Below are positions 1,967 to 26,176 of a stretch of 35,079 nucleotides of DNA, piece by piece. The stretch is taken from positions 1 to 35,079 of the forward strand of contig JAHJDJ010000162.1 of assembly GCA_018812585.1 (NCBI GenBank), written 5' to 3'. The stretch comes from a bacterium. Lineage in GTDB: Bacteria > Electryoneota > B3-LCP. Below the pieces are notes generated by a model. That model did not search any database and was not told the DNA's origin. It saw only the letters and a program-made list of their open reading frames with translations. Positions within the stretch are counted from its first letter, which is position 1. Each line of letters begins with the position of its first letter. Both the position numbers and the translations under genes were made by a program.

Positions 1967-2014
1967 TATCACCTGAACAGGTTGCATTAGAAGATATAAT
2001 TCTGAGGATAAACA

Positions 2015-3106
2015 ATGAAATCGATTTATACAACTGTACCGCTGGCCTTGTTGATCCTTGCCGTTCTGCAGGCAGGATGCGGAAGAAAAGAGGAGGCGGG
2101 CGAACCTATTATCCGACCGGTCCGATATGAACAGGTATTTATGACCGGTGGAACGAGAATGCGCACTTTTTCAGGTTCCGCGCAAGCAGGCACAGAAACC
2201 AACTTAAGCTTCAAAGTGCCAGGAACTGTGAAACAATTCGCGGTGAAAGTTGGCGACACGATCAAGAAAAATCAGGTCATCGCTAAACTGGACCCGCAGG
2301 ATTACGATTTGCGGGTGCAGGAAGCTGAAGCCGCCCTGCAGCAGGCGATGGCTCAGGCGCGTAACGCCAATGCCACTTACGCTCGTGTGCGCGAACTCTA
2401 TGAAAATCGCACCTCATCGAAAAGTGATCTGGACGCCGCCCGCGCGGGAAGCGAATCGGCGGAAGCGGCTGTTCGTTCTATCGAAAAGCGCCTGGAACTG
2501 GCTAGACTGCAAGTTGATTATACTACCTTACGCGCCCCGGCAGACGGTTCCATCGCTTCTGTCATGACCGAAGTCAACGAAAATGTAGCCGCAGGCAAGG
2601 CAGTCATCGTATTAACGTCGGGGAAGCAGCCTGAAGTGAAAATCACCATCCCGGGAGTGATGATCGCTCAAGTGAAATCCGGCAGTTCTGCCAGCGTCTC
2701 CTTCGATGCGATTCAGAATCGCACTTTCCAGGCGACTGTGACGGAAGTCGGTGTGACGGCGACTGGATTCGAGACGACTTATCCGGTCATCATCCGGCTG
2801 GATGAAGAGACAGATGCGGTTCGCCCGGGAATGGCTGCGAATGTATCTTTTCGTTTTGAAACAAGTACCGCACGTGAACGTATATTGGTGCCATCTGTCG
2901 CGGTTGCTGAAGACCGGCAGGGGCGCTACGTTTTTATCGTTGAACCAGGTGAAGATGATCTGGGTATCGCACGCCGCAAAAAAGTGCAAATTGGAGAGCT
3001 GACCGAAGAGGGTCTGGAAGTGCTGGAAGGGTTACAGGAAGGTGAGCTGCTTATCACCGCCGGAGTAACTCGTATTGTCGATGGTCAAAAAGTCAGACTC
3101 CTCTAA
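2015..3106 (+). CDS. RND efflux periplasmic adaptor subunit (membrane fusion protein), lipoprotein-like
   Basis: Signal/lipobox-like N-terminus (LAVLQAGCG); lipoyl-type segment VKQFAVKVGDTIKKNQVIAKLDPQDY; α-hairpin; LRAPADGSIASV; upstream of RND permease. Confidence 0.93.
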   Translation: MKSIYTTVPLALLILAVLQAGCGRKEEAGEPIIRPVRYEQVFMTGGTRMRTFSGSAQAGTETNLSFKVPGTVKQFAVKVGDTIKKNQVIAKLDPQDYDLRVQEAEAALQQAMAQARNANATYARVRELYENRTSSKSDLDAARAGSESAEAAVRSIEKRLELARLQVDYTTLRAPADGSIASVMTEVNENVAAGKAVIVLTSGKQPEVKITIPGVMIAQVKSGSSASVSFDAIQNRTFQATVTEVGVTATGFETTYPVIIRLDEETDAVRPGMAANVSFRFETSTARERILVPSVAVAEDRQGRYVFIVEPGEDDLGIARRKKVQIGELTEEGLEVLEGLQEGELLITAGVTRIVDGQKVRLL

Positions 3107-3120
3107 CGGAAGGAAGAACG

Positions 3121-6100
3121 ATGTCTATTACAAAATTCGCCATAGAAAAAGACCGGATCACCTGGGTGGCCATCTTTGTGACTGTTTTTGCCGGCTGGGG
3201 CGCTTATCAATCCCTGCCGCGCTCAGAAGATCCCGGATTTACAATTCGCATTGCCCAGATCGTGACAATTTTCCCCGGAGCCAGCCCGGAACGCGTGGAA
3301 AACCTGGTCACCGATAAACTGGAAGCGGTAATCCAAGAAATCCCGGAACTGAAGTTCGTCACCAGTGAATCCCGCTCAGGCATATCGCTGATCTATGTCG
3401 AAATTCAGGAAAAATACAAGGAGATGCAACCCATCTGGGACAATCTCCGGCGAAAAGTAGATCGCGCCAGCGCGGAATTACCAGCGGATGCGCACCGACC
3501 TGTCGTCAACGATGAATTTGGTGATGTTTTCGGTATAATTCTAACGCTGACAGGCGAGGGATTCAACTATGTTGAATTGAAAGACGTTGCAGATCAGGTG
3601 CGCGACGTTTTCCTGAATGTTTCCGACGTGGCTAAAGTTGACATCTATGGCGCGCAGGAAGAGCGCATCTTCATTGAATATGACAACACCCAGCTTGCAC
3701 AATTGCAGATTTCATCTTCCCAACTGCAAAAAACGTTGCAAGCGCAAAATATCCTCTTCCCAGGTGGGCGAGTCACAAGCGGAACAGAACGGATCATTTT
3801 AGAGCCCTCGGGCAGCTTTGATTCTATTGAAGATCTGCAAAAAACTATCCTGAGTCTTCCCGGGCAGAGTGACGTTCTCTATCTGGGAGATATCGCGCAT
3901 GTTTATCGCGGTTACGTTGATCCACCGATTTCTAAAATGCGCTTTAAGGGTACTCCCAGTTTGGGGATCGGAATTTCGATGCGTGAAGGCGGCAACATCA
4001 TCAACATGGGTGATGAAATCCGTGAAATCGTTGCCACTCTCCAGACTCAATACCCCATCGGCATCGAATTTGATTTTGTCGCTTTTCAACCGGATGAAGC
4101 CAACAAATCAACAAGGCGCTTCAGCAGCAACCTCCTGCAGGCGATTGTCATCGTCGTATTGGTGATGATGTTTACCCTGGGATTAAGAACCGGCTTGATT
4201 GTCTCATCGTTGATTCCAGTCGCTGTTCTCCTGGCCCTGGCGGTGATGAAAACAGTGGGCATAGGGATGAATATGATCTCCCTGTCAGCATTGATCATTT
4301 CACTTGGCCTGTTGGTCGATAACGCTATCGTGATGTCGGAATTGATCATGGTCTCCATGCAGGAAGGGATGCCGCGCAAGGAAGCCGCTATCGCTGCCGC
4401 CAAAGAGCTGCGTGTGCCCCTGCTAACCGCATCGCTGACTACCACAGCCGCTTTCATGCCTGTCGCATTGGCGGAGTCAGCCTCAGCCGAATACACCAGC
4501 GTTCTCTTCTATGTCACAGGCATAACTCTACTTGGATCGTGGTTGCTCTCACTGACAATGATACCATTGATGTGTGTGCTTTTTGTCAAAGTTAAGCAGA
4601 AATCAAAAGAAGAAACTTATGATTCGGGTTTCTATCGGGCTTACCGCGGGACTCTGCTGGCTTTGATCCGGCATCCCATCTTAAGCATCATCGGGATTGT
4701 TTTGTTCTTTATCGGGGGAATTCAGTTAGGAAAATTTGTGCCTAATATCTTTTTTCCTCATTCTGACCGTGCTTTCCTGACCGCGACGCTGAAACTGCCA
4801 GTGGGGACGCCCATCGAAATAACCGAAGCAATGATGGATGACCTGGAAACCTTCATGCACGATTCGCTAATGATAAATAATACCAGAGTCGACGGCATCA
4901 CAAATTGGGCGAGCTTCATTGGCCAGGGCGGACCCAGATTCTATCTTTCCATCAATCCCGAACCGCAGGCTGAAGAGCTGGCCTACATGCTGATCAATGC
5001 CACCACTCGCCTTGCGGCTGATGCTGCGAAGGAGAAGCTTGAACGCTATTGCCTTACACATTTCCCAGACCTGAATCCGCTGATCAATCCGCTGGATTAC
5101 GGTCCACCGGTTATGGCTCCAGTGCAAATCAGGCTGTCGGGTGAATCGGAGGACCAGCTTTTCCAGATTGTGGAAAACGTCAAAGGAAAGCTTGCTGAAA
5201 CTCCCGGGACAAAGAACATTTCTGATAACTGGGGTCCGCGCATCAAGAAGATTCTGGTCAATATCGATCAGGCGAGAGCGCGGCGCGCAGGAGTCACCAG
5301 TATGGATGTGGCGGTCAGCTTACAGTCCATCCTGAGTGGTATTGAAATCACACAATTTCGTGAAGATGACAAGGTCATCCCGATCACATTGCGCGCTACG
5401 GAGGCGGATCGACAGGATCTGGGGAAGTTGGAGACACTGGATATCTATTCACAATCTACGGGTCGAACGGTCTCCCTGAAGCAGGTCGCCGATTTGAAGG
5501 TTGTCTGGCAGCCTTCCAAGATTTTACGGCGGGATCGCATTAAGACGGTTACAGTGGAATGCTATAACGAAGCCGGTTTCACGGCGATGGACATTTACGG
5601 CGTCATAACACCCTGGTTCGATCAACAGCAGGCTAACTGGCCGGTGGGATACAAGTACGAATTCGGAGGTGAATTGGAATCTTCCGTCGAATCACAGCGC
5701 TCCATCATGGCCAAGATGCCTCTGGCCATGGCGGTGATTATATTGCTGCTGGTAGTACAGTTCAACAGTCTACGCCGTCCGACCATCATTCTACTGACCA
5801 TCCCGCTGGCGTTTGTCGGCATCAATTTCGGTCTGGTGGTAACCGGTAAATCATTTGGATTTATGACCTTGTTGGGGATGATATCATTGATCGGTATCGT
5901 CATCAATAATGCCATTGTGCTGTTGGATCGAATAAAAATCGAGATAGAAGAGTTGGGTCTGGATCCTCATCGCGCGGTTATCGACGCGGCTCAAAAGAGG
6001 CTGCGCCCCATTCTTCTGACCACAGCCACCACCATGGGCGGCATGATGCCGCTCTGGTTCAGTGGCGGCCCGTTGTTTTCGTCGTTAGCAGTAGCGATCA

Positions 6101-6198
6101 TCTTCGGGTTGTTATTCGCTACGCTGCTGACCCTCGGCGTCGTACCGATCTTGTATTCGCTCTTTTTCAGGTTGAATTTCAAGAACTTTGAATACTAA
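3121..6198 (+). CDS. RND efflux permease (HAE1/AcrB-like)
   Basis: 1025 aa; RND motifs (FPGASPERVENLVTDKLE, GLLVDNAIVMSE, GIVINNAIVLLDRI, RLRPILLTTATTMGGMMPL). Confidence 0.95.
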   Translation: MSITKFAIEKDRITWVAIFVTVFAGWGAYQSLPRSEDPGFTIRIAQIVTIFPGASPERVENLVTDKLEAVIQEIPELKFVTSESRSGISLIYVEIQEKYKEMQPIWDNLRRKVDRASAELPADAHRPVVNDEFGDVFGIILTLTGEGFNYVELKDVADQVRDVFLNVSDVAKVDIYGAQEERIFIEYDNTQLAQLQISSSQLQKTLQAQNILFPGGRVTSGTERIILEPSGSFDSIEDLQKTILSLPGQSDVLYLGDIAHVYRGYVDPPISKMRFKGTPSLGIGISMREGGNIINMGDEIREIVATLQTQYPIGIEFDFVAFQPDEANKSTRRFSSNLLQAIVIVVLVMMFTLGLRTGLIVSSLIPVAVLLALAVMKTVGIGMNMISLSALIISLGLLVDNAIVMSELIMVSMQEGMPRKEAAIAAAKELRVPLLTASLTTTAAFMPVALAESASAEYTSVLFYVTGITLLGSWLLSLTMIPLMCVLFVKVKQKSKEETYDSGFYRAYRGTLLALIRHPILSIIGIVLFFIGGIQLGKFVPNIFFPHSDRAFLTATLKLPVGTPIEITEAMMDDLETFMHDSLMINNTRVDGITNWASFIGQGGPRFYLSINPEPQAEELAYMLINATTRLAADAAKEKLERYCLTHFPDLNPLINPLDYGPPVMAPVQIRLSGESEDQLFQIVENVKGKLAETPGTKNISDNWGPRIKKILVNIDQARARRAGVTSMDVAVSLQSILSGIEITQFREDDKVIPITLRATEADRQDLGKLETLDIYSQSTGRTVSLKQVADLKVVWQPSKILRRDRIKTVTVECYNEAGFTAMDIYGVITPWFDQQQANWPVGYKYEFGGELESSVESQRSIMAKMPLAMAVIILLLVVQFNSLRRPTIILLTIPLAFVGINFGLVVTGKSFGFMTLLGMISLIGIVINNAIVLLDRIKIEIEELGLDPHRAVIDAAQKRLRPILLTTATTMGGMMPLWFSGGPLFSSLAVAIIFGLLFATLLTLGVVPILYSLFFRLNFKNFEY

Positions 6199-6219: not shown

Positions 6220-6247
6220 AAAAGCCCCCGATTGCAGGGGGCTTTTT
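6220..6247. terminator. Bidirectional intrinsic terminator between convergent operons
   Basis: AAAAGCCCCC-GATTGCA-GGGGGCTTTTT hairpin with A- and T-tracts on both sides. Confidence 0.85.
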
Positions 6248-6275: not shown

Positions 6276-7058
6276 TTACACGATCCCCTCCAACGCAATA
6301 ATCGCCGCGCCTAATGCGCCCGCATATTCAGGCATCTCCGGGACTTGCATCTCAAATCCTAAAACAGCGCTCAACTCCCTGACCATACAGCGGTTCCGGG
6401 CGACGCCTCCGGAAAAAGCTCCGGGAGCCTGCGGATGCAGCGATTTCGCCATCTGCGCCACGCGCTGCGCGATAGAGCGGTGGACACCGTTGGCAATATT
6501 CTCTTTGCGTACCCCCTCAGCCAACAACGATAGCACTTCACTTTCAGCAAATACCGTGCAGATCGACGAGATCTGCACGGGATCAGTGGAAGCAAATGCC
6601 AACTCAGCGAAATCCGCCACAGGCAGATCCATGGTCATCGCTAAAAACTCTAAGAATTTACCGCTGCCCGCGGCGCAACGGTCATTCATGGCAAAGTCGA
6701 AGACCAATCCTTCTTCATCGATCATGATCGCTTTGGAATCCTGTCCTCCAATATCGATCAATGTTCTCGTTCCCGGCAATAAGTATGAAACGCCTCTGGC
6801 ATGGGCTGTTATCTCCGTGATGGCCTTATCTGCGAACGAGGCAGTCGCACGCCCGTAACCAGTTACCACTATCCGCTCCACCAGATCAATCTGAGTCGTT
6901 CCTTTAACTTCATCGAACGCCTTCTGTGCGCTCTTTTCCGGCGACCAGCCGGTGGGGATCAAGGTCTTTCCCAGAACGGCGCTGCCATCCCAGATGACAG
7001 CTTTCGTGGTGCGGGAACCGATATCGATACCAGCAACTGATTTACCATTGGAAATCAT
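6276..7058 (-). CDS. HgdC/BcrA-type CoA-dehydratase activase (ASKHA ATPase, [4Fe-4S])
   Basis: GIDIGSRTTKAVIWDG, VTGYGRA, DIGGQDSKAI, NDRCAAGSGKFLE, SICTVFAESEV, GGVARN motifs typical of 2-hydroxyglutaryl-CoA dehydratase activators. Confidence 0.92.
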   Translation of the reverse strand: MISNGKSVAGIDIGSRTTKAVIWDGSAVLGKTLIPTGWSPEKSAQKAFDEVKGTTQIDLVERIVVTGYGRATASFADKAITEITAHARGVSYLLPGTRTLIDIGGQDSKAIMIDEEGLVFDFAMNDRCAAGSGKFLEFLAMTMDLPVADFAELAFASTDPVQISSICTVFAESEVLSLLAEGVRKENIANGVHRSIAQRVAQMAKSLHPQAPGAFSGGVARNRCMVRELSAVLGFEMQVPEMPEYAGALGAAIIALEGIV

Positions 7059-8079
7059 AATGCGCCTGTTTCCCGACTTGAATTAACGCCTGCAGCTTTT
7101 CCGGTTGGCATTTGATAGGGACTTCACAACCGGTTGATAATACAAATCCTTTTGGATTGGGAATTCCTTGTGATAAAATCCGATGTGTGCAATCGGAAAT
7201 CACTTGATGACTGGAAGGCAGTAAACTACTGGGTGACAGATTGCCAACCAGTCTCACCCTCTCCCCCATTTCAGCGACCGCCTGCGGCAGTTCAGCTTGA
7301 TCCAGACTGAAAAGGTCCGCCCCGCTTTGCGGAATAAGATCCAGCATTTTGGAAGTGTCACCGCACACATGCAGCGTGATATCCAGATCATAGCGGTGCA
7401 GATAGCTGATAAGTTTTACCTGATAGGGCAGAGCGAACTCTTGATAAGTCCGTCGTGATATCACACTACCGGAGGCCAGGGGATCGACCAGCACGGGTAA
7501 GGCTCCTGCTAAAACGCATGCATCGCAGAAGCGGATCGCCGCCTGCAGGGAAATATCCAGAATTGCATGCGCTGCCTCTGGAGCTAAAACCGTATCCATT
7601 AAAAACTCTTCCACGCCGCGCAGTCCGGCGGCTGTCGTAAAAGAGCAGGGAATAAACGCGAAGATGGGCAAAATATCCCCGGCAGCCTCATACATGGTAT
7701 CAATCGCATCGAGGTATACGGATAGCCTGCCCGTAGACCCTGGATCTGGCGCCTGCAATTTTTCGATCTGATTATGATTATCAATAATGGGCTGATCCAA
7801 AATGGGGACGTCATATTGGCGGTAATGATAACGGCTGCCCATTGCTTCCGCGATGATCCCAACTTCTGAAAAGACGGAAAGCCCCTCATGGCCATACTTC
7901 CGCTGAGCAGCCAACTGCGCTTCCGCCATGACCTTGCCGTTGGTGACGTAGGTCGTCAGATCGCAGCCGTACACTGCCGCTGCGTGAGCGGTCACCAGTG
8001 GATAAACCGGCGGCCGGTCAGGAATTTCGTCGATCAGCAGCAGCCCCCAGCGTTCGCGAGGATTCATTTCACCCGGCAC
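7042..8079 (-). CDS. Uroporphyrinogen decarboxylase-like corrinoid methyltransferase (MtaA/CmuA family)
   Basis: UroD fold signature and Zn-type ligands HVCG…STGCEVP; overlaps neighbours. Likely start 8067 (MNPRERW). Confidence 0.85.
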   Translation of the reverse strand: MPGEMNPRERWGLLLIDEIPDRPPVYPLVTAHAAAVYGCDLTTYVTNGKVMAEAQLAAQRKYGHEGLSVFSEVGIIAEAMGSRYHYRQYDVPILDQPIIDNHNQIEKLQAPDPGSTGRLSVYLDAIDTMYEAAGDILPIFAFIPCSFTTAAGLRGVEEFLMDTVLAPEAAHAILDISLQAAIRFCDACVLAGALPVLVDPLASGSVISRRTYQEFALPYQVKLISYLHRYDLDITLHVCGDTSKMLDLIPQSGADLFSLDQAELPQAVAEMGERVRLVGNLSPSSLLPSSHQVISDCTHRILSQGIPNPKGFVLSTGCEVPIKCQPEKLQALIQVGKQAHYDFQW

Positions 8080-9451
8080 GGCGCGACCTCCTCATGCGTA
8101 ATGATTCGATAAACGCCTCCATGCGGTTGTTAATCTGAGACTGAAGCTGCTTTTTCCCGGGCGCAACCACGTCAAACGCCAGCACAGGAACCCCCTCTTT
8201 TCGTACCGCGTCGATAATCGGCCGGGTTTCATAAGGACAATGCGTCGATGCAAAGATCCCCGAAATAATGACGCCATCGGCCTTAGCACGGCGAACCTGA
8301 TCCACTACTAAATCAACTCTGAATCTGGATGACCCCATTAGCGATCCCGCCAGTTGACCCTCTGCGAGGTTTTCAAAGACGTCTCCTTCCGTTTTCAGAG
8401 CTGGTGTAGACTGATTGATGACGTATTCCGATCCCACTATACGAGCGCCTAAATCTTCGGCGTAATTTTGCAGAATCGGATCCGCGGGCGGCGTGACCCA
8501 GACGATGCGCAGTGGTTGATCAGGATACCCATTCTGCTGTTCGACCCGCGCCTTCATCTCGTCCCGAAATGCTCCCAAAACGGCTGTACATTCTTCCAGA
8601 TCGCCGTAATAGGATAGCGCCGCAAACTCGACGTTCATCATCTCCATGCCGCCCATGGGATTAGGTCCGGTGGTCGCCGCGAGATCCTTTACTTCGGAGA
8701 TTAGTGACCTGATAAGGTTGACCTTTCCGACTGTTTCATGGAGCCGATCTTCACTGAATGAATGACCCGTAACTGCTTCCAGCCGCGTGGCCACTTCGCG
8801 ATAGCGGTCTGCTAAAAATGAGAGCTGCCTCTGCTGATTGCCGGGGATGGTATCTCGCGCGGGCAGTTCCAGGTAATAAACGTCGTTGCCGATAAATTCC
8901 GTTCCTGACATCACCGCAGCCATATCATCGCACGTCGCGCCGACAGTCCCTATAATCAAATTCGGTTTGGGAAAATAGGCCCGCTTCGAAAATGCTCCCA
9001 GTGCCGCACGCACAAAACAGCAGTCCTCCCCCATCCCAAGCTGCCCGGCTTCATTAAAAAGCACCCGGCTTTCCATTAAGAAAGGCGTCCACCAGAGGCA
9101 GTCAGGGTAAAAAGCTACGGTGTCAGGGAAGGAATAAACCAGTGGGGTGATAGCGCCTAAATCACCCACCACCGCCACGACTTTCATCCCAGCCTGACGC
9201 GCTCGATAGATCCGCTCACTTTCTGAAAGCACAAATCCCCAGAGGCGAAGCGCGGCAGGGGAGTTGTCAAATTTCATCTTTCGCAGCAGCCGGTTACCGT
9301 AGACGGCATGCGTGGAAGGAGGAAAAAGGTATTGCGACCACTCAGCGTCAGGCAGATGATGGTAATAGCGCGTGTTTTTTACCCGTTCATCCGGTATCTC
9401 TTTGAACAGCTCATGCCACTGCCGGTAATTGATTTGCTTCGCCGGAATCAC
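8069..9451 (-). CDS. 2-hydroxyacyl-CoA dehydratase/benzoyl-CoA reductase-like subunit (HgdB/BcrC superfamily)
   Basis: 460 aa; GEDCCFVRAALGAF, GTVGATCDD, SGIFASTHCPYETRPI cysteine motifs; overlaps the next gene by ATGA. Confidence 0.85.
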   Translation of the reverse strand: MIPAKQINYRQWHELFKEIPDERVKNTRYYHHLPDAEWSQYLFPPSTHAVYGNRLLRKMKFDNSPAALRLWGFVLSESERIYRARQAGMKVVAVVGDLGAITPLVYSFPDTVAFYPDCLWWTPFLMESRVLFNEAGQLGMGEDCCFVRAALGAFSKRAYFPKPNLIIGTVGATCDDMAAVMSGTEFIGNDVYYLELPARDTIPGNQQRQLSFLADRYREVATRLEAVTGHSFSEDRLHETVGKVNLIRSLISEVKDLAATTGPNPMGGMEMMNVEFAALSYYGDLEECTAVLGAFRDEMKARVEQQNGYPDQPLRIVWVTPPADPILQNYAEDLGARIVGSEYVINQSTPALKTEGDVFENLAEGQLAGSLMGSSRFRVDLVVDQVRRAKADGVIISGIFASTHCPYETRPIIDAVRKEGVPVLAFDVVAPGKKQLQSQINNRMEAFIESLRMRRSRRAG

Positions 9452-10509
9452 GCACGCCTCCGGCTGCGGCTCTGCAGCATCTCCACGAAGGCGCCCACCC
9501 GCGTGCGGAAATTACTCACGGCGGGCGACGTCAAATCATCATCGACGACCAGCACGGGCAGATTCAACTCCTGCTTCATTCTATCAGCTAGCAATCCCCA
9601 GGGATGGCAATATTTGACTGAACGGTAAACCACCCCCTGCACTGCGCGCTCATCGATCATTCGCTTGATATTATCTATCAGCGGATCCACAGGACGGCGA
9701 TGGGGACACAGATTTCCTTCAACATAAGCGTCGTACAAATTTTCCCACGGATTGCCGGACTCTTTCACCAAAAACTGAAAGACACGATCCCCCAGACAGG
9801 TTACATCGGCAACCACCGAAACTCCGCATTTCTCGATTTCTGCTAATTCCCAGACTCCGGGAATACTGCCAGCCAGTAATAGACGAATCGGTTGATTACC
9901 TGAAGGTTCGGTATTTATCTGCTCCAGAAATTTCAGTTTTTCGATAACCGGAAGAGACGATCTGGCCAGGTCTTGCAGCAGGCCATTCGACATACTATTG
10001 GCCATGCGCAATTCAGCGATGCGATTCCTGAGCTTATTGTATAATGGTATGATAGATTCAAGGCAATTGATGTCGAGCTGCAAATCCAGTTGGTCAAACA
10101 GGTACTTAAACGCTTGCTGGAATTCCACCTGAAAATAGGATCGATCAGCGTTCCAGGTTCTGGGAGCGCCATAGAGGATGACGGGGATTTCGAGAGACTC
10201 ACCTAAAGTATCCAATAGTCTCCGCATTTGATCGCAGCAGTTTCCGCCAATAACAGCTTTGACGTTCTGATAACAGGGTGTCTCCAGAATGGCAGGCACA
10301 GACCGGCAGAAGGAACACCCGTCGGATCGGATCAGACCATTTATCGATGTATCGAATTCTTTGCGCGGTGCAATACGAATGGGAATAGCGCCCGCCGCTT
10401 CGATCAACTCAGGCGGCACACGCAAACAGAGATAAGCGATCTTAGGCTTATTCTTAGCTTCTTCCGCGTACGCGGCTTCCCAATCTTCTATCGTGTTCGA
10501 TTCTATCAT
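9448..10509 (-). CDS. 2-hydroxyacyl-CoA dehydratase-like second subunit (HgdB/FldC superfamily)
   Basis: 353 aa; PPELIEAAGAIPIRI, SDGCSFCRS, GGNCCDQMRR, VKYCHPWGLLADRMKQELNLPVLVVDDDLTSPAVSNFRTRVGAFVEML. Confidence 0.85.
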   Translation of the reverse strand: MIESNTIEDWEAAYAEEAKNKPKIAYLCLRVPPELIEAAGAIPIRIAPRKEFDTSINGLIRSDGCSFCRSVPAILETPCYQNVKAVIGGNCCDQMRRLLDTLGESLEIPVILYGAPRTWNADRSYFQVEFQQAFKYLFDQLDLQLDINCLESIIPLYNKLRNRIAELRMANSMSNGLLQDLARSSLPVIEKLKFLEQINTEPSGNQPIRLLLAGSIPGVWELAEIEKCGVSVVADVTCLGDRVFQFLVKESGNPWENLYDAYVEGNLCPHRRPVDPLIDNIKRMIDERAVQGVVYRSVKYCHPWGLLADRMKQELNLPVLVVDDDLTSPAVSNFRTRVGAFVEMLQSRSRRRA

Positions 10510-10512
10510 GGT

Positions 10513-12054
10513 TCAAAATGACATATTTGCCACGTAAATATCCTGAAAATTAGAGTGGTCGCCCAAATTGACGACCTTAACTTTTCCCGGCAGATCCGCC
10601 GCACGCCTCACGAAATGGCTGTTGCCCAGGCAGAGTAGCGCCCCGCGCCCCGCGGCATTATCCATGAAAGTGATCTTTTCTATTGGTATGTCGGGGATCA
10701 AACCGACTGCAACCGCAGACTTGGGGGTCACCCGATTCCCGAAAGAGCCAGTGACGATAATCTCATCTAATTGTGCTGGATCTAACCCTGCCTGCTCGCA
10801 TAGTATTTCTATTCCAGCGGCAATCGCAGCCTTTGCCAGTTGAAATTTGCGCACGTCATCCTGAGTCAGATACAGATCCTGGCGGCTTTGCGGAATCGGT
10901 GTCCAGCGGCGGATATTTTCATGATCTTGCCGGATCAAACCGGTCTTGTCGATGATTCCAGCCTTATGCAGATACGCAATAGTAGAAATATAACCCGATC
11001 CGCAATATCCCACCGGCTCACCCCCGCCAATCACAAAAGGATCACCCTCATCGGATATCCCTTCGATGGCTCCCTGTAAGGCTGGCATCCCTGCCGCCAT
11101 CCCCACACCTTCAAATGCCGGACCGGCTGCCGTTGAGGTCGCCAGGATGTCTCCGTTTGCCGTCAGGACAATTTCACCATTTGTGCCCAGATCTATCAGC
11201 AAACGATGTCCCTCGGGTAAATCCATATCCGCAGCGATAATGGCCGCAGTGGTATCACCGCCGATGAAGCCTGTCAAAACAGGAAAAAGATCGCATTTGG
11301 TTCTGGCAGACAATCCGATCCAGGCTGGATCCAACACGAGTTTCTTCCTGCCTTCCAGAGGCGACCGGAAGGGAGCGATTTCCAACCCTTCTCCGTCGCG
11401 CCCCAGGAGCAGATGCAGCATAGTCGTGTTGCCGGCAAGGCTTACCGTAGAGATAGAATCTACCGCGATCTGTGCCGTCGCAAGCAGCTTTTTAATGCCA
11501 TCAGTCAACCCCTGTCTGACGGAAGCGGTCAGAGCTTCTCGCTGTTCGGGCTTTCTCGCCAGAGTCAGCCGCGTCATCACGTCGCCGCCCTGATGCACCT
11601 GAGGATTCAAGACAGAGTACTGTTCTGTAATGATCCCTTGGGAAAAATCGGCCAGATAGAACGCGATGACCGTTGTCCCCAGATCAATCGCAATGCCAAA
11701 GCTCCTGCTGACCCTCCCCGCGAAATCAAAATCCCTGATATTCTTCTCGATGCGCCATTCCTGCAGCCGTGGAATGGAGATTTCACAATCGGATTGGATG
11801 TGCTGCAGGCAGGCGAGGCGGTAATCGGTATGCTCTCCTAAGAGTTCAGCTTCGCGCTTCTGTACGGGCGGTAACTCAGTTTCGAACAGTACCCGGCAGT
11901 GACCGCACTTTCCCTTCCCAGTACAATTTTGAGGAAAGAAAATCCCGGCTGAGGCCAGCGCTGATCGAAGATTCTGTCCTTTCTGGACTTTGATCTCACG
12001 GCCGTCGGGATTCAATAAAACTGTGTATTCTCTGTTTTCTCTCAGCTTAGTCAT
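10513..12054 (-). CDS. RACo-like reductive activator of corrinoid proteins (N-terminal [2Fe-2S] ferredoxin + ASKHA/DUF4445)
   Basis: 2Fe-2S motif NCTGKGKCGHC…RLACLQ; IAIDLGTTVIAFYLAD; LAGNTTMLHLLLG; GGDTTAAIIA; DLGTNGEIVL. Confidence 0.9.
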   Translation of the reverse strand: MTKLRENREYTVLLNPDGREIKVQKGQNLRSALASAGIFFPQNCTGKGKCGHCRVLFETELPPVQKREAELLGEHTDYRLACLQHIQSDCEISIPRLQEWRIEKNIRDFDFAGRVSRSFGIAIDLGTTVIAFYLADFSQGIITEQYSVLNPQVHQGGDVMTRLTLARKPEQREALTASVRQGLTDGIKKLLATAQIAVDSISTVSLAGNTTMLHLLLGRDGEGLEIAPFRSPLEGRKKLVLDPAWIGLSARTKCDLFPVLTGFIGGDTTAAIIAADMDLPEGHRLLIDLGTNGEIVLTANGDILATSTAAGPAFEGVGMAAGMPALQGAIEGISDEGDPFVIGGGEPVGYCGSGYISTIAYLHKAGIIDKTGLIRQDHENIRRWTPIPQSRQDLYLTQDDVRKFQLAKAAIAAGIEILCEQAGLDPAQLDEIIVTGSFGNRVTPKSAVAVGLIPDIPIEKITFMDNAAGRGALLCLGNSHFVRRAADLPGKVKVVNLGDHSNFQDIYVANMSF

Positions 12055-12066
12055 TCAAATTCGACA

Positions 12067-13026
12067 CTATCGCATCATTTTCTGCACCCGCTTAGGGTCT
12101 GCTTTCGCGGGCAGATCGCATCCCGCAGAAAGGATATAGGGCTCAGGTAAAACCTTGCGGCACTGGCTGATGGCCGCATCCAGATCACCGTTGGCAGTTG
12201 GCATGAACAGATTCGTCGGCACAAATCCCATCGCTATAGCCTGCTGCTCAGGCTTCCACATCGCCTCATGCCAATCTTCAAAGCTCAACAGATCCAGGTT
12301 CAGATCAGCCAGTTCAGTTCCCAGCATCCCGATTTCTCCACAAATGTGAAGACAGCGGAAATTATCTGCAGGGATTCGTGCGAGCAGCTTCTCCAGATAA
12401 GGCATAGCAAACCGTCTGAAGTAGTTTCTACCTATGAGTCCACCAGACGCAATGGGCGCGCCAATGAAAGGAATATAGTTATTAGATACAATATTATCAA
12501 TAAGATAGGATTGACACTGGGTAACCTTTTCCAATAGATCCACTATTCTCGCGGCACCAGTGATCATCAATTCCAGGAATCTCTCCGTGCCAATAGCCAT
12601 CGCCGCAAGGCTGAAAGGATCCTTCATGGAAACGAAAATAGGCATTTCAGCAGGCAGAGCCATACTACTTAAAGACGCCGCTTCGAGAAGTACGGGAATA
12701 CGGCCTTGTCTGGTGTAATCGAACGCCTTTATCTCAGATATCTTCAGTTGCATAGCGGGTTGAGGATTCGTATCGGGGAAATATTCCAGTAGAACACCCA
12801 GCGCTTCCGGTTCAACGGAAACATCGGAAAACACGATGATGAAGTCACTGTGATAGAGTCTTTGTGCGTACAAAAGTCCTTCGGCCAGTAAATCGCTGCG
12901 GCGGCAAACCTCTCCCAATGGCTGCTTTATCAGCACCGCCAGGTGGTCTGCTGCGATCATCGGCCCGCGCGCGCAGCGCTGACCCTGCAGTGCAGTAAAA
13001 AGTCTGTCGAAGGTTTCACGCCTCAA
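12067..13026 (-). CDS. Uroporphyrinogen decarboxylase-like corrinoid methyltransferase (second paralogue)
   Basis: LHICGEIGML…SAGCDLPAKADPKRVQ (H-x-C…C Zn-type ligands); UroD-family layout; 11-nt overlap with corrinoid protein gene. Confidence 0.82.
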   Translation of the reverse strand: MRRETFDRLFTALQGQRCARGPMIAADHLAVLIKQPLGEVCRRSDLLAEGLLYAQRLYHSDFIIVFSDVSVEPEALGVLLEYFPDTNPQPAMQLKISEIKAFDYTRQGRIPVLLEAASLSSMALPAEMPIFVSMKDPFSLAAMAIGTERFLELMITGAARIVDLLEKVTQCQSYLIDNIVSNNYIPFIGAPIASGGLIGRNYFRRFAMPYLEKLLARIPADNFRCLHICGEIGMLGTELADLNLDLLSFEDWHEAMWKPEQQAIAMGFVPTNLFMPTANGDLDAAISQCRKVLPEPYILSAGCDLPAKADPKRVQKMMR

Positions 13027-13666
13027 GAGAAAGTCCTAACAGTTGATGTGCGCCGATAACTGCGGCGCGAGCGTCACCGCCGTAGAAATGAGCGCCAATA
13101 GATTCTGCGAAATCGGTATCCACAGGCGCGCCGCCCACAATTACCTTCAGATCCGGTTTTTTCTGCAAGAGTTTGGCTGTAATCTCAAGCATACTGTCCA
13201 TCGTCGTGGTCATCAGCGTTGAAAGCGCTATGATTCTGGGATTTTCTCTATCGACAGCTTCTGAAAAACGATCCAAAGTCACGTTTTTACCCAGATCGAT
13301 CATGCGAAACCCTGCCGCTTCCAGCATCAACTTCACGATATTCTTGCCTATATCATGAAAATCACCGTCTATTACACCAATGGCGATAGTGCCCTTGTTG
13401 TTGATCGCTCCTTCAACCACGTGATCTTTTAAAATATCAAATCCGGCGTACATGGCACGCGAACAGACCAGCACCTCAGGAACAAAATACTCCTTAGCTG
13501 CAAACAGTTCGCCCACGCGATTCATGCCTGCGGCTAAGCCCTGTTCTATGGCCTGTTCAGGAGCCAGCCCTTCAGCTAAGACCTGTTGCGCCAATTGTTT
13601 CACGTCGTCAGCTTTCATGGCCACGACAGCGTCGGAAAGTTTTGTATAAAGTTCAGACATCTTCAA
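13016..13666 (-). CDS. Methyltransferase cognate corrinoid protein (B12-binding, MtbC/MtaC type)
   Basis: Helical cap domain, then DGDFHDIGKNIVKLMLEAAGF (DxHxxG cobalamin-binding motif) and GGAPVD segment. Confidence 0.93.
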   Translation of the reverse strand: MKMSELYTKLSDAVVAMKADDVKQLAQQVLAEGLAPEQAIEQGLAAGMNRVGELFAAKEYFVPEVLVCSRAMYAGFDILKDHVVEGAINNKGTIAIGVIDGDFHDIGKNIVKLMLEAAGFRMIDLGKNVTLDRFSEAVDRENPRIIALSTLMTTTMDSMLEITAKLLQKKPDLKVIVGGAPVDTDFAESIGAHFYGGDARAAVIGAHQLLGLSLEA

Positions 13667-13697
13667 GTGTTACGTTAGCTTGGTCTATTGATAGCAA

Positions 13698-14120
13698 TTA
13701 GCCTGATAAAAGAACCATGGCGATGATTGCGAAAACAATTCCTAATAACTTCTTCAATGTCACCGGCTCCGCAAGAAGAACGAAAGCCAGCACCGAAGCA
13801 ACCGCCACATACAATGAAGTCAACGGGATCACCGTCGATGCCTGACCACGCGATATGGCGATGTAAAAGTAAAGAAACCCTAACGCGCCTGCCAGCCCGG
13901 CAGCCAGCCCGACCCCATGCCACAAATCAAACTTGAATTTCAGCGGACCCGCCGCCAAACCACCCAACAGCGTGCAGATACCGAACAAAACCATTAACAT
14001 CTGCCACGGAACGCGGTCAGAACTGAGCTTGGTTAAAAAGCCCCAAAGTCCCCAGAAAAACAGTGCGAGGAGGGAGGGTCTGAGCCACCCTCCCCCATTT
14101 AGTAAGTCCATCATTTGCAT
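13698..14120 (-). CDS. Small EamA/DMT-family transporter
   Basis: 140 aa, hydrophobic with about 5 TM segments; …LTSLYVAVASVLAFVLLAEPVTLKKLLGIVFAIIAMVLL typical of the EamA C-terminus; TAATG overlap with upstream gene. Confidence 0.8.
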   Translation of the reverse strand: MQMMDLLNGGGWLRPSLLALFFWGLWGFLTKLSSDRVPWQMLMVLFGICTLLGGLAAGPLKFKFDLWHGVGLAAGLAGALGFLYFYIAISRGQASTVIPLTSLYVAVASVLAFVLLAEPVTLKKLLGIVFAIIAMVLLSG

Positions 14121-14917
14121 TATTTCCTGCAGATGAAACGGCCGCGGCCCATCTTGCCTTCGTGAGCTTTCTCGCCCATGAAAGCCATCTCACCGCCCAT
14201 CGCCTGGAACAGCTCCAGATTATCTCCAATGATTTTCAAAGCGTCGTAGGACAACTGATCTACCAGCATTTTGATATACAAATCGACATAGCCAGCATAC
14301 TCTTCAGTCAAATCAGTGCTTTCTAAGAGGGTCAAGCTATTATCCGCAAACAGCTTTTCATACCCCTTCTGATTTTCCATGTAGGGAAATTTCATAAATG
14401 AATTGATCCGCCTGGCTTCATCGTCAGACAATCCGGCAGCGCCCTCGATCCAATCAGTGAAGACCAGTAAACCACCCGGCTTCAACACTCGTGTGGCTTC
14501 AGAAATCAATCTTGCCTTATCATTGACATAACACCAAGCGTCTTCACCCCAGACAAAATCGAATGTATTGTCCACCCAGGGAATTTCTGTGACGTCGCCC
14601 AGTTTGAATTCGATTCTGTCAGCAAGACCCTCTTCCTGGGCACGCGCCTGAGCTTTGGCGTGCATCGTCTGTGTTCCATCCAGACCGCACATGCTGACAT
14701 TGAAATTCTTCACCAGAAAGCGGCATCCCGCGCCCAGAGCGCTGCAGAGATCCAATCCCCTCCAGCCGGGCTGAATTCCGGCATTCTGAGCCAGCATCAT
14801 CGACGATTTGAACCCACCGACGTGAATCTGCTCGCCCATGATCAGCTCCCAGAGCACACCCTCGGGACCGTCGTAAACTTCATTTACATTCTTAAGAGAG
14901 ATGTCCAACCGTTCCAT
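14120..14917 (-). CDS. Class I SAM-dependent methyltransferase (sarcosine/dimethylglycine N-methyltransferase-like)
   Basis: GLDLCSALGAGCRFL (motif I), EDAWCYVNDKARLISEATRVLKPGGLLVFTDW; start placed at ATG 14917 behind GGAGG. Confidence 0.85.
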   Translation of the reverse strand: MERLDISLKNVNEVYDGPEGVLWELIMGEQIHVGGFKSSMMLAQNAGIQPGWRGLDLCSALGAGCRFLVKNFNVSMCGLDGTQTMHAKAQARAQEEGLADRIEFKLGDVTEIPWVDNTFDFVWGEDAWCYVNDKARLISEATRVLKPGGLLVFTDWIEGAAGLSDDEARRINSFMKFPYMENQKGYEKLFADNSLTLLESTDLTEEYAGYVDLYIKMLVDQLSYDALKIIGDNLELFQAMGGEMAFMGEKAHEGKMGRGRFICRK

Positions 14918-15230: not shown

Positions 15231-17066
15231 TTACAGCTTCGCCACTCCCCGTTTCTGCCGCTTGGCGTCATCTTCGCTTAAGTAATGCTTGCGCAGGCGG
15301 ATTGATTTAGGCGTAACTTCCACAAATTCATCATCTTCGATAAACTCCAGAGCCATCTCCAGCGACATGATCCGCGCGGGATGAATATGATAAGCCTCAT
15401 CCGACCCGGAAGCACGCATATTGCTGAGCTTCTTTTCCTTGGTCGCATTGACCCAGATGTCCTTGTCCCGCGAATATTCTCCCACAACCTGTCCGGTATA
15501 AACGTCATCACCTGGCGAGATAAACAACACCCCGCGTTCCTGCAGATTGGCCAGCGCATAAGCGGTCGCCATACCCATTCTATCTGCAATCAGCACACCC
15601 GTGACTTTGCGGTGGAATTCACCTAAATGCGGCTTCCAGCCGAGAAATACATTGTTTACCACTGCTGTTCCGCGTGAATCGACGATCAGGGCCAGGCGCA
15701 GACCAATTAATCCGCGCATGGGGATTTCATACTCGAGCCGCACCCATCCTGATTGATGGTTGACCATCTTCAGCATCTTTGCTTTGCGCGGTCCTAACAT
15801 CTGTGAAACAGTGCCCAAATAGGCTTCCGGACAGTCGATCGTCAAGTGCTCAAAAGGTTCCAGTAATTGACCATTTTCACGGCGAGTTCTTACCGTAGGT
15901 TTTCCGATTTCCAGCTCAAACCCCTCACGGCGCATGGTTTCAATCAGAATGGCCATCTGCAGTTCGCCCCGCCCCACTATCTTGTAAGAATTGGCGCTGT
16001 CCGTCGCCTCTACCTGCAAAGAAGGGTTCCCCTGTATCTCCTTGAAAAGACGATCCTTAAGTTGGCGGCTGGTCAGTAAAGTCCCTTCACGTCCGGCAAC
16101 TGGCGACGTATTGATCGAAAATACCATCTCCAAGGATGGCTCATCGATGCGCAAACCGGGCAGGGGGCGCGGGTCTTCGGGATCTGTCAAAGTTCCCCCC
16201 AGTTTCATCCCCTCAATACCGGCAATAGCAATGATATCTCCCTGCACTGCTTTCGTAATCGACTCTCGCTTTAATCCGGAAAAACCGTACAGTTTAGTGA
16301 TCTTTGCTTTTTCGCCTAACGTCTCGCCATCACTGTCGGCCATCAGCACGATCTGTCCCGTGTGCAATTCGCCATTGGTAATTCGTCCGATACCAATTCG
16401 TCCTAAATAATCGCTGTAATCCAATGACGTAATCTGCAATTGCAGAGGGTGTCCTTCCTCGTAGGATGGCGGTGGCACTCTCTCTATAATCAAATCGAAT
16501 AGCGGCCGCAAATCTTTCCCTGGGACGTTATAATCCAAGGTAGCAGTGCCATTTTTCGCTACGGTGAAAACCGTTGGAAAGTTGCACTGCTCCTCTGTGG
16601 CGTCCAGATCCAGAAAGAGTTCCAACACTTCATCTAAGACCTCTTCAATGCGAGCGTCCGGCCGGTCGATCTTGTTAATGACCACAATGGGCGATAATCC
16701 ATTTTCCAGAGCATTGGATAAAACGTAACGCGTCTGCGGTAACGGCCCCTCTGAGGCATCCACCAGCAGCAGACAGCCATCTACCATCTTCAGAATACGC
16801 TGCACTTCCCCGCCGAAATCAGCATGTCCCGGCGTATCGACGATATTGACCGTTGTGCCGTGGTAGGGAATGGCGGTATTCTTCGCCATGATCGTGATGC
16901 CTTTTTCGCGCTCAAGATCCATCGAATCCAGCGCTCGCTCAGCTATTTTTTCACGGATTCCGAAAATACCGGATTGATGCAGCATACCGTCGACCAAGGT
17001 CGTTTTGCCGTGGTCGACATGCGCGATGATTGCCACGTTGCGAAGGTTCTCTCTTATCTTTATCAA
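15231..17066 (-). CDS. typA: Translational GTPase TypA/BipA
   Basis: [63 protein letters not shown]; BipA C-terminal region. Confidence 0.97.
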
Positions 17067-17117
17067 TTAAATCTCCATGTCCCGAAGTTATTGCGAGTAT
17101 AATACCATAAATAACAA

Positions 17118-17786
17118 CTATTTGGGTATCTTTTCATCCCACCTGCACTGATCCCAAAGGAAGCAGTCCCGGCATCTGGGTTTGCGTGCTTGACAGATTG
17201 TACGTCCAAATTGCAGTAGATTCATGTGCAGCGAATGCCCTTTTCCCGTTGGAACATGCGGTCGAAGCTGCCAGAATGTTTTTTCTGCGGTGGTGTTCCA
17301 ATCCACCCAGGCTAACCGCCTCGCAATGCGATGCACGTGCGTATCGACCGGACAAAGATCACGGCCTAAAGTTATCATCAAAACCACGGTTACCGTCTTA
17401 ATTCCGATACCCTTTTGTGCGGTCATAAGTTCAATGGCGGCATCGTTGTTATAATTCTTCAACTGGCGCAAAGATAGTTCGCCAAATTCTTGCTTGATCC
17501 AGCGCAGGATCGCCTGAATGCGTTCAGACTTCTGCTGCGACAAACCAGCGATCCGAATCGCATCTTCCAGTTTCTCGGTCGGAGCGTTCATCACCTCTTC
17601 CCAGGAAGGATAAATCTCCAGCATTCTGTTGTAAGCCCTATCGCGCAAGTTATCGTTGGTGTTCTGTGACAAGACTGTTAAAATCAGATTATCAAGTGCA
17701 TCAGATGGGCCCGGCCACTGCTTTTCACCCTGATTCTTTTCCAGAAGCTGCAATGCTTCTAATATTCTTACTGATAGATTATTCAT
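17118..17786 (-). CDS. nth: Endonuclease III-family DNA glycosylase
   Basis: HhH …QKGIGIKTVTVVLM…CPVDTHVHRIARRL plus C-terminal FeS loop CQARKPRCRDCFLWDQC. Confidence 0.88.
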   Translation of the reverse strand: MNNLSVRILEALQLLEKNQGEKQWPGPSDALDNLILTVLSQNTNDNLRDRAYNRMLEIYPSWEEVMNAPTEKLEDAIRIAGLSQQKSERIQAILRWIKQEFGELSLRQLKNYNNDAAIELMTAQKGIGIKTVTVVLMITLGRDLCPVDTHVHRIARRLAWVDWNTTAEKTFWQLRPHVPTGKGHSLHMNLLQFGRTICQARKPRCRDCFLWDQCRWDEKIPK

Positions 17787-17801
17787 CGGATATATCGTGT
17801 A

Positions 17802-18434
17802 TTATCGTTCGAAATCTGGCTGCACCACCAGCAGAGATATCGAACGCGAAACCTCATGTATCCTGATCTCTGCGTCTGATTCGTCCCTTAACGCCTCCGC
17901 ATCCTTACTTACACTGCTCCCCTTAAAAAAACAGATGCTTCCTCCCGTTCTAAGGAAAGGCCTTAAATAGTTGAAAAGTTTCACGGTCTGCCCCACCCCC
18001 CTCGAGGTAATCATATCAAACTGACCAACCCAGGATGGCATCTTGAATTCTGCGCCGATCCGGTCGTGGATGACTGTCACATTTTGCAGAGATAACTCAT
18101 CGACCACCCGGCGAAGAAACGCGGCTTTCATGCGTCGCGCTTCAATCAGCGTCATATTCAGATCCGGCCGTGCGAACTTTAAGGGAAACGCAGGGATTCC
18201 CGCTCCACTGCCAATGTCTAAGACCCTTGATCCGACCTCTAATTCCTCATGCTGCAATAGAGTTATCGACTCGTTAATTAAGTTTACCAACAAGTTGTCA
18301 ACATCACCTGTTGATACCAGGTTAGTTATTGAATTCCAATAACTTAAAGTCTCAGCATACGCACAACATTGCGCCTCAAGCGCAGACTTATCAACATCTC
18401 GTAGGTCTAATATTTTGTGCGTATTAAGGCTCAT
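17802..18434 (-). CDS. rsmG: 16S rRNA (guanine527-N7)-methyltransferase RsmG
   Basis: SYWNSITNLVS…VLDIGSGAGIPAFPLKFARPDLNMTLIEARRMKAAFL; adjacent to mnmG. Confidence 0.93.
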   Translation of the reverse strand: MSLNTHKILDLRDVDKSALEAQCCAYAETLSYWNSITNLVSTGDVDNLLVNLINESITLLQHEELEVGSRVLDIGSGAGIPAFPLKFARPDLNMTLIEARRMKAAFLRRVVDELSLQNVTVIHDRIGAEFKMPSWVGQFDMITSRGVGQTVKLFNYLRPFLRTGGSICFFKGSSVSKDAEALRDESDAEIRIHEVSRSISLLVVQPDFER

Positions 18435-18449
18435 TCGCTGCTTGTAAAG

Positions 18450-18458
18450 TTATCCACA
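18450..18458 (+). promoter_or_regulatory. Perfect consensus DnaA box (TTATCCACA)
   Basis: Exact match in the rsmG-mnmG intergenic region, next to AT-rich sequence. Confidence 0.6.
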
Positions 18459-18510
18459 CTTCTCTATTTATAAATTGCCTGAAATCGTTACTATTTGAGT
18501 GCAATTTCCA

Positions 18511-20361: not shown

Positions 20362-20390
20362 TCACCCCTCAAGTCCAAATCCACTTCAAT

Positions 20391-20406
20391 TGTTTCACGT
20401 GAAACA
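20391..20406. promoter_or_regulatory. parS centromere site 1
   Basis: Perfect 16-bp palindrome TGTTTCACGTGAAACA, matching the ParB-Spo0J family consensus. Confidence 0.93.
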
Positions 20407-20427
20407 AAATCGTTCTATTCCTTAAAA

Positions 20428-20443
20428 TGTTTCACGTGAAACA
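20428..20443. promoter_or_regulatory. parS centromere site 2
   Basis: Identical second copy TGTTTCACGTGAAACA, 37 bp start-to-start from the first. Confidence 0.93.
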
Positions 20444-20455
20444 ATCGGCAACTTC

Positions 20456-21838: not shown

Positions 21839-21851
21839 AGAGCCTTGGATT

Positions 21852-21876
21852 AAAAAAACCCGCAGCAGGCGGGTTT
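21852..21876 (-). terminator. Intrinsic terminator after yidC
   Basis: Minus strand AAACCCGC-CTGCT-GCGGGTTT followed by T-tract. Confidence 0.8.
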
Positions 21877-21906
21877 CCAAGTCATTTGACAGGCTGAAGC
21901 TGCGCC

Positions 21907-23634: not shown

Positions 23635-23637
23635 AAT

Positions 23638-23850
23638 TTAAGGCTCGTCAACTCCCCCGGGGTTAAACGGATTACATCGGACTAAACGCCACATTGCCTT
23701 GGCGCTCCCTGTCAAGGCGCCGTATTTCAGAATGGCTTGCCTGGCGTAAGTGGAACAACTCGGATAAAACCGGCATTCCCCGCCCAAACTCACTCCAAGC
23801 GACGCGCGGTAAAGATCAAGGATCAACATCAAAACCCTGGATGGCAGCAC
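23638..23850 (-). CDS. yidD: Membrane protein insertion efficiency factor YidD
   Basis: [34 protein letters not shown]…RLVRCNPFNPGG. True start is probably internal to the longer tracked ORF (23850 or 23829), overlapping the rnpA 3' end. Confidence 0.88.
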   Translation of the reverse strand: MLPSRVLMLILDLYRASLGVSLGGECRFYPSCSTYARQAILKYGALTGSAKAMWRLVRCNPFNPGGVDEP

Positions 23851-24165
23851 GGTAAGATCTGACCAGATCTTCTTCAACCTGGTGGAAACTCTCTGCCGGT
23901 CGGTTGAAACTGACAATGACACTTCCCGGCACAGACAACTCCGATCGCTGTCTCCTGAAAACCTCCCGAGCCCATCGCTTGTGCAGATTTCGGACATGTG
24001 CTTTACCAAGTTTCTTACTCACCAAAACAGCGAATTTGAATTCGTTCGCAGGTAAAAAAAAAGCGTCAAAGTAACTGCCCGTACTTTTTTTCCGTTGCGA
24101 AGGACAGCTTTGATTTCCCAGCGACGCTTGATGCGCGCAAGTCTGGAAAATCGTTCATTATTCAT
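23816..24165 (-). CDS. rnpA: Ribonuclease P protein component, split into two frames at an A7 run (24091-24085)
   Basis: Manual translation: ATG 24165 frame gives [27 protein letters not shown]; after a -1 shift the second frame gives [48 protein letters not shown]. Together they read as one RnpA. Position between rpmH and yidD is canonical. Confidence 0.85.
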
Positions 24166-24301: not shown

Positions 24302-24332
24302 ATTTCAGCTCCTTCTCATTTTCAAACCTTCT

Positions 24333-26170: not shown

Positions 26171-26176
26171 TTGAGC

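Follow-up and report, generated by a model that had tools for sequence, protein, structure and literature searches.

Why does one bacterial operon combine corrinoid-dependent methyl transfer with an HgdB/HgdC-type reductase module driven by ATP? The question is raised by a minus-strand operon at positions 6276-14917 of a 35,079-nucleotide stretch (the window) of contig JAHJDJ010000162.1, whose host belongs to Electryoneota, a candidate phylum of the Fibrobacteres-Chlorobi-Bacteroidetes (FCB) group. The answer proposed here, tentatively and at a probability of about 45%, is that the operon encodes a salvage system for methyl-selenium or methyl-sulfur compounds with its own BzdNO-like, ATP-driven reductase of very low potential. 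Gene content, conserved linkage, zinc ligands, iron-sulfur cluster ligands and fold, all established at the level of sequence, carry the argument.

A literature search for the combination named by all its parts returned no match, and the selenium literature led to the mlp gene clusters. Kountz & Balskus 2023 (PMC10418091) describe type I mlp clusters as holding a corrinoid protein, the reductive activator RACo and either two or three UroDs, without a tetrahydrofolate methyltransferase, and often double-cubane cluster proteins (DCCP/DCCPR) and SelABD; the proposed function is demethylation of methyl-selenium and, in a minority, methyl-sulfur compounds. They report methylcobalamin:selenide transfer by ClMlp2 in an enzyme assay, and Methanococcus voltae could no longer use dimethylselenide once a homologue had been deleted (PMC10418091; PMC11097638). 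Comparative genomics in 2015 placed HgdB-like and activase genes beside selenium genes (PMC5322559). Judged by gene content and zinc ligands, the operon is mlp-cluster-like. A preliminary description of this DNA, made from its letters alone, knew of no biochemically assigned function for the combination; because the operon resembles this published kind of cluster, a proposed function does exist, together with the one enzyme assay.

Gene layout and conserved core

The nine-gene operon is confirmed as real. All nine minus-strand open reading frames of the preliminary description are found among the calls for the window, overlapping or nearly abutting, with a largest intergenic gap of 31 nucleotides, and the family assignments of the nine proteins hold in profile searches. 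Transcription runs samMT-eamA-corr-uroD1-raco-hgdB2-hgdB1-uroD2-actv, with overlaps of 1 nucleotide (samMT/eamA), 11 (corr/uroD1), 4 (hgdB2/hgdB1), 11 (hgdB1/uroD2) and 17 (uroD2/actv), and gaps of 31 (eamA-corr), 12 (uroD1-raco) and 3 nucleotides (raco-hgdB2).

14120..14917, minus strand: samMT, class I S-adenosylmethionine-dependent methyltransferase, 265 residues (PF08241/PF13649)
13698..14120, minus strand: eamA, half-size EamA-type membrane transporter, 140 residues (PF00892)
13016..13666, minus strand: corr, two-domain corrinoid protein, methyl carrier, 216 residues (TIGR02370 and MtgC/MtbC-like, below cut-offs)
12067..13026, minus strand: uroD1, UroD/MtaA-like methyltransferase, 319 residues (PF01208; predicted zinc ligands H227, C229, C303)
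10513..12054, minus strand: raco, reductive activator of corrinoid protein, 513 residues, 2Fe-2S and ASKHA (PF00111, PF17651, PF14574)
9448..10509, minus strand: hgdB2, HGD-D subunit, 353 residues, predicted carrier of an [8Fe-9S] double cubane, BzdN-like (PF06050)
8069..9451, minus strand: hgdB1, HGD-D subunit, 460 residues, predicted active-site subunit (PF06050; predicted [4Fe-4S] on C145, C174, C405)
7042..8079, minus strand: uroD2, UroD/MtaA-like methyltransferase, 345 residues (PF01208; MtaA/CmuA-like below cut-off; predicted zinc ligands H237, C239, C318)
6276..7058, minus strand: actv, HgdC-type ATP-dependent activase, BadF-type, 260 residues (TIGR00241 over cut-off)
6225..6240, minus strand: terminator-like hairpin directly past actv, the last gene (consensus match only)

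The gene combination is more than chance, for its order is found again both elsewhere in Electryoneota and in another phylum. Within Electryoneota, hgdB1 is present in 10 of 39 genomes, 8 of which hold the whole operon or a piece of it that stops at a contig edge; relatives of the window genome, from its own family or phylum, include LCP-89, Candidatus Tariuqbacter arcticus and other metagenome-assembled genomes, and both NCBI and the Tariuqbacter paper assign that genus to Candidatus Electryoneota. One locus (L015) carries all nine genes in an order identical to that of the window. Orthologues of hgdB2, scoring at least 228 bits, occur in the same 10 of 39 genomes, and uroD2 and hgdB1 occur in exactly the same 10 of the 386 genomes searched. 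The operon is dispersed in two genomes (G002 and G005), with hgdB1 alone, hgdB2 alone on a second contig and a uroD2-actv pair on a third, while G005 has an operon-type RACo gene on a fourth contig; in G004 only RACo is relocated, and it is still in the genome. Fusion of uroD1 and raco into one 850-residue reading frame in L020/L028 (2513-5065) hints at direct contact between the two proteins.

Several further observations concern copies in or outside this phylum. The Lon protease encoded beside the lone hgdB1 of G002 and G005 is an ordinary Lon and was rejected as a partner. A decayed operon is seen in G016 (L053 4670-6196), where the activase gene is intact, only fragments of RACo and uroD2 precede it, and neither hgdB gene is left. 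Outside the phylum, none of the roughly 350 genomes in the sample of relatives, a thin one that contained no WOR-3 hit, carries HgdB1 or UroD2 at the thresholds used, and a plasmid search gave no HgdB1 copies and distant UroD2 and HgdB2 matches.

A scan of public genomes brought up two WOR-3 genomes in which the full order is present at roughly 40% identity, and a search of that phylum found 38 positive genomes among 147. Throughout 38 loci of 37 WOR-3 genomes, plus one further locus (L033), the order corr-uroD1-raco-hgdB2-hgdB1-uroD2-actv is constant and genes only drop out; samMT alone is placed elsewhere, in four of those loci. The HgdB1 tree implies about five losses of RACo, which 11 WOR-3 loci lack in the cluster, and three of UroD1, and corr, hgdB2, hgdB1 and uroD2 are retained in the WOR-3 loci wherever the contig allows. 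The irreducible set thus consists of corr, both HgdB subunits and UroD2, which the activase accompanies in nearly every case.

Together with the dispersal of genes, these losses constitute a natural experiment on which parts are indispensable. The earlier view that one pathway needs both chemistries is borne out, as hgdB2-hgdB1 stay with corr and uroD2 when raco and uroD1 are lost. Separation of the HgdB/HgdC genes from the corrinoid genes, named beforehand as a refuting observation, is not what the neighbourhoods show: the association is conserved, and even G002 and G005 keep hgdB1, hgdB2 and uroD2-actv though unlinked. The core is kept in Electryoneota and WOR-3; eamA is kept in Electryoneota operons and absent from those of WOR-3, and raco or uroD1 is sometimes lost.

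Predicted metal sites and operon flanks

Both UroDs present His-x-Cys...Cys in every copy that reaches the site: the UroD1 zinc ligands H227/C229/C303 are invariant (40/40), as are UroD2 H237 (46/46), C239 (46/46) and C318 (45/45). In the UroD superfamily, PMC10418091 describes a His-Cys-Cys zinc site as the signature of sulfur or selenium methyltransferases, the Cys being replaced in O-demethylases. Read by this signature, the ligands point to a sulfur or selenium substrate. They also make the UroDs candidate substrate methyltransferases, a function that the preliminary description had found missing from the operon, and they lend no support to the betaines, methylamines and aryl ethers suggested there as substrates. 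The DxHxxG cobalamin motif is present in the corrinoid protein of the window and in 36 of 36 WOR-3 copies. RACo is of the bacterial type, with 3zyy as its closest solved structure; it is AcsV-like yet far below cut-off, with 2Fe-2S, middle and C-terminal domains, and Electryoneota also carry a separate, longer AcsV-like RACo. Profile scans of the operon and its neighbourhoods found no tetrahydrofolate methyltransferase in the cluster.

By sequence and model, the anatomy of the reductase module is that of a heterodimer, in which a predicted double-cubane subunit and a predicted open-site subunit are fed by one activase. In class I benzoyl-coenzyme A (CoA) reductase, the [8Fe-9S] double cubane of BzdN is bound by Cys36/73/100/263/293/327, and the active site of BzdO comprises [4Fe-4S]-OH2 with Cys95/128/380, His131 and Glu65 (PMC11971306). 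HgdB2 residues C28, C65, C92, C238, C268 and C301 align with the six BzdN ligands in an alignment to the host's own BzdN, and 43 of 49 HgdB2 homologues have all six, the six exceptions being one N-terminally truncated reading frame and five WOR-3 sequences with real substitutions. The latter (L094, L100, L107, L115, L121) lack one to three of the six ligands and keep C65, C92 and C301; their HgdB2 is perhaps reduced to a single [4Fe-4S] cluster, comparable to 2-hydroxyacyl-CoA dehydratase.

HgdB1 carries cysteines at or near the BzdO ligand positions, namely C145 (48/48 homologues), C174 (48/48) and C405 (47/48), with C174 and C405 paired by motif, the alignment to BzdO being locally shifted there. 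C174 is followed by D-D-M; as C174, D175 and D176 are invariant in 48 homologues and no His stands there, HgdB1 appears to have no counterpart of BzdO's catalytic His131. Around the position of Glu65 the alignment is unreliable. An additional invariant cysteine, C118, lies within FYP(D/E)C(L/H)WW, and the protein has an extra N-terminal region that is strongly conserved, with many invariant residues. We infer that metal clusters are present in both HgdB2 and HgdB1.

The structural comparison suggested in the preliminary description agrees with this layout. The AlphaFold model of HgdB2 (predicted local distance difference test score, pLDDT, 86) is nearest to BzdN 8s02_B (template-modelling score, TM, 0.80), that of HgdB1 (pLDDT 78) matches DCCP, BzdO and HadB, and both fall in the fold shared by DCCP, benzoyl-CoA reductase and 2-hydroxyacyl-CoA dehydratase. 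The activase scores 249.8 bits with TIGR00241 against a cut-off of 125.4, holds both cluster Cys motifs in the window protein and in 32 of 32 WOR-3 copies, and has HadI, MbdQ, HgdC and DCCP-R as its closest solved structures. The HgdB pair lies under the family cut-offs for bzdN (52/453.8 bits), benz_CoA_red_C (27/421), HadB (25/750) and HadC (46/700), and by these cut-offs is neither a benzoyl-CoA reductase nor a 2-hydroxyacyl-CoA dehydratase; HgdB2 (107.8 bits) and HgdB1 (84.0 bits) are also under the 350-bit cut-off of the double-cubane family NF040772.

Selenocysteine codons were considered in the operon proteins and rejected: TGA read-through yielded nothing beyond the ends of genes and spurious extensions upstream of them, with no selenocysteine at a conserved cysteine of any operon protein, and the 'TGA inside' flags on HgdB1 and RACo in genome searches are their own stop codons. 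The longest samMT reading frame begins at 14998 (TTG); the alternative start at 14917 is preferable because its 265 residues match the length of orthologues at the same place in other Electryoneota (265-267 residues). SamMT is below all NCBIfam equivalog cut-offs. The operon is flanked by a resistance-nodulation-division efflux system (2-6198, plus strand) and by typA-nth-rsmG-mnmG-mnmE-yidC-dnaA-dnaN. The latter segment (15231-27289), with typA, an endonuclease III-like glycosylase gene, rsmG, mnmG, mnmE and yidC leading to dnaA and dnaN, is a classical origin-of-replication neighbourhood, dnaA lying about 10 kb from the operon. No Rfam element or riboswitch was found upstream in the window or in four related loci.

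Substrate, mechanism and alternatives

In the proposed mechanism, UroD1 and/or UroD2 would bind a methylated selenol or thiol at the His-Cys-Cys zinc site and transfer the methyl group to Co(I) of the corrinoid protein, the other UroD possibly handing it on to a thiol, while RACo would re-reduce corrinoid that has slipped to Co(II). An activase dimer would use ATP hydrolysis to drive electrons into the [8Fe-9S] double cubane of HgdB2 and from there to the open-site [4Fe-4S] of HgdB1, where an organo-selenium or organo-sulfur substrate would be reductively cleaved or otherwise reduced. The demethylation product, selenide or sulfide, would be freed, in the selenium case for SelD. The selenium or sulfur nature of the substrate, the direction of methyl flow and the reductive step at HgdB1 are what we infer; the ATP-driven HgdB pair would perform the reductive step, most likely on such a compound. 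By analogy with MarHDK, a C-Se bond reductase is an attractive possibility. A stronger version appears doubtful: that HgdB1, HgdB2 and the activase form a new class of ATP-driven reductase, an iron-sulfur counterpart of the nitrogenase-like methylthio-alkane reductase, in which a double cubane supplies an open-site [4Fe-4S] that cleaves the C-Se (or C-S) bond of a methylated compound, the methylselenol passing to the corrinoid demethylase.

Selenium enters through the WOR-3 neighbourhoods. Upstream of the operon, 13 loci encode SelD (five were scanned, and all five exceed the TIGR00476 cut-off); SelA follows immediately downstream in 11, and SelB is next in 9. Altogether selD, selA or selB adjoins 19 of 38 loci, and on the HgdB1 tree these neighbours were gained several times independently. 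A SelB above cut-off occurs in 35 of the 38 WOR-3 genomes that have the operon and in 26 of the 109 that do not (Fisher p = 5.6e-14). A DCCP-like gene with an activase lies upstream of samMT in five loci; both of the two such neighbours scanned are over the double-cubane cut-off (458.6 and 460.3 bits).

Two further features of WOR-3 loci are recorded here. Five loci (for example L095 3230-3541 and L101 5520-5822) encode, beside the samMT or DCCP gene, a small ferredoxin:thioredoxin-reductase-like protein with CPC..CPC..CFC, which is related to the FtrB double-selenoprotein family but has Cys. Directly upstream of the operon in L107 (15661-19314), and also in L109, L110 and L111, lie genes for an ATP-binding cassette (ABC) transporter, whose binding protein is SsuA/SaoX-like, and for a 279-residue protein; the transporter is possibly the substrate importer.

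Several points weigh against the selenium/sulfur salvage reading. The SelB association falls to p = 0.18 inside the operon-bearing part of WOR-3, so that it is largely phylogenetic and adjacency is the better evidence. No selenocysteine-machinery gene was seen adjoining the operon in Electryoneota, and SelD, found in 34 of 39 Electryoneota genomes, is uninformative there because it is nearly universal. UroD1 and UroD2 have no one-to-one orthologues among the three UroDs of a similarly composed Acetoanaerobium noterae cluster, which came from the plasmid matches and is taken here to stand in for the Mlp references: UroD2 is sister to two of these clostridial stand-ins together, and UroD1 forms its own lineage. 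The scheme also assigns no role to samMT and EamA. Finally, dsrA occurs in 8 of the 10 Electryoneota genomes with the system and in 11 of 29 others, a weak difference likely confounded by kinship; as several operon-bearing genomes carry it, sulfur chemistry fits as well as selenium. A separate observation on SelD in this phylum is that its matches in most genomes (G000-G038) contain one in-frame TGA; SelD may thus be a selenoprotein in these genomes.

Also to be weighed, above all for Electryoneota, is a system confined to methyl-sulfur chemistry, such as salvage of methionine or methylthio compounds, in which the WOR-3 selenium genes would be incidental and the HgdB pair would be the iron-sulfur counterpart of methylthio-alkane reductase. 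His-Cys-Cys zinc sites suit sulfur as well as selenium, the dsrA distribution is compatible with it, and the SsuA (sulfonate)-like binding protein of the upstream ABC transporter, although below cut-off, leans the same way. Non-selenium type I clusters are moreover linked to the nitrogenase-like C-S bond reductase MarHDK, many clusters carrying DCCP instead, according to PMC10418091. The repeated, independent gain of selenium genes beside the operon and the presence of a double-selenoprotein relative beside samMT in WOR-3 argue against restriction to sulfur, which is unlikely.

Reduction of the corrinoid itself is a rather unlikely role for the HgdB pair. Here pair and activase would have no contact with the substrate; their ATP-driven reduction would serve solely to maintain Co(I) on the corrinoid (or to reduce a partner), alongside RACo or in its place. 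Co(I) and HgdB clusters both require very low potential, and RACo is the part that gets lost, with the HgdB pair, corr and uroD2 persisting in the loci that lack it, which favours such a role. RACo is nevertheless kept in most loci, and in the genome even when relocated, as in G004, which would leave two ATP-driven activators for one job; the conserved N-terminal region of HgdB1 also resembles a substrate site more than an electron relay. On the retention of RACo in most copies and the length of this conserved region, a substrate role for HgdB1, as in the salvage reading, is favoured.

Handling of methylated metalloids or metals (arsenic, mercury), with samMT as an ArsM-like partner, is very improbable. 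SamMT is weakly similar to ArsM models, and selenoprotein-rich 'SAO' systems with SaoX-like transporters have been proposed for organometals; its ArsM scores, however, are those of any class I methyltransferase, and no arsenic or mercury gene lies in the operon neighbourhoods examined.

Least probable is a conventional role in acyl-CoA metabolism, in which the HgdB pair, as a 2-hydroxyacyl-CoA dehydratase or aryl-CoA reductase, would convert a methylated acyl-CoA and the corrinoid genes would demethylate the product. Fold and cluster layout are nearest BzdNO, HadBC and DCCP, but the pair is far under all the corresponding cut-offs, apparently lacks His131, has no CoA transferase, ligase, beta-oxidation or other CoA-ester pathway gene in any operon neighbourhood examined, and shares its host with a separate BzdNOPQ. 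That cluster (L022 4895-9540, host contig C346) is of the benzoyl-CoA reductase type, with BzdO (687 vs 448.6 bits) and BzdQ over cut-off, BzdN just under, and thiolase, enoyl-CoA hydratase and short-chain dehydrogenase/reductase genes as neighbours.

Comparison with known systems

The operon places a relative of the double-cubane proteins, whose physiological role is described as unknown (PMC11971306), in a fixed association with a corrinoid methyl-transfer system, in one gene order and in two phyla. Because the zinc sites and the WOR-3 neighbours point to selenium or sulfur, the role of this relative becomes testable: its substrate should be a methylated selenium or sulfur compound. Electryoneota and WOR-3 would thereby be added as hosts of a corrinoid system of the methyl-selenium/sulfur type.

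Compared with type I mlp clusters, as the cited parts of the literature describe them, and with the Methanococcus Sdm dimethylselenide system, the operon shares two His-Cys-Cys UroDs, a corrinoid protein and a RACo-type activase without a tetrahydrofolate methyltransferase. The DCCP/reductase and selABD genes reported with type I clusters also have their counterparts among the neighbours of WOR-3 loci. The operon differs in its fixed gene order, type I clusters being described without synteny, in having a BzdNO-like heterodimer instead of, or besides, a homodimeric double-cubane protein, and in its hosts.

With the class I benzoyl-CoA reductases BzdNO/MbdNO (8s02, 9g87; PMC11971306), the reductase module shares unequal subunits (353 + 460 residues here vs 379 + 447) and the distribution of six candidate [8Fe-9S] cysteines in one subunit and three candidate [4Fe-4S] cysteines in the other. 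It departs from them in its scores below the family cut-offs, in the apparent absence of His131, in the lack of CoA pathway genes in its neighbourhoods and in having one activase gene where they have the BzdPQ pair. DCCP/DCCP-R (6eno, 7yyl), likewise ATP-driven and linked to selenium genes in the literature, gives the best PDB sequence match for both HgdB subunits; in the homodimeric DCCP both chains carry a double cubane, whereas HgdB1 retains only three of the ligands. The methylthio-alkane reductase MarHDK is likewise an ATP-driven low-potential reductase genetically tied to UroD/corrinoid clusters; its fold is unrelated, and the likeness is an analogy of role.

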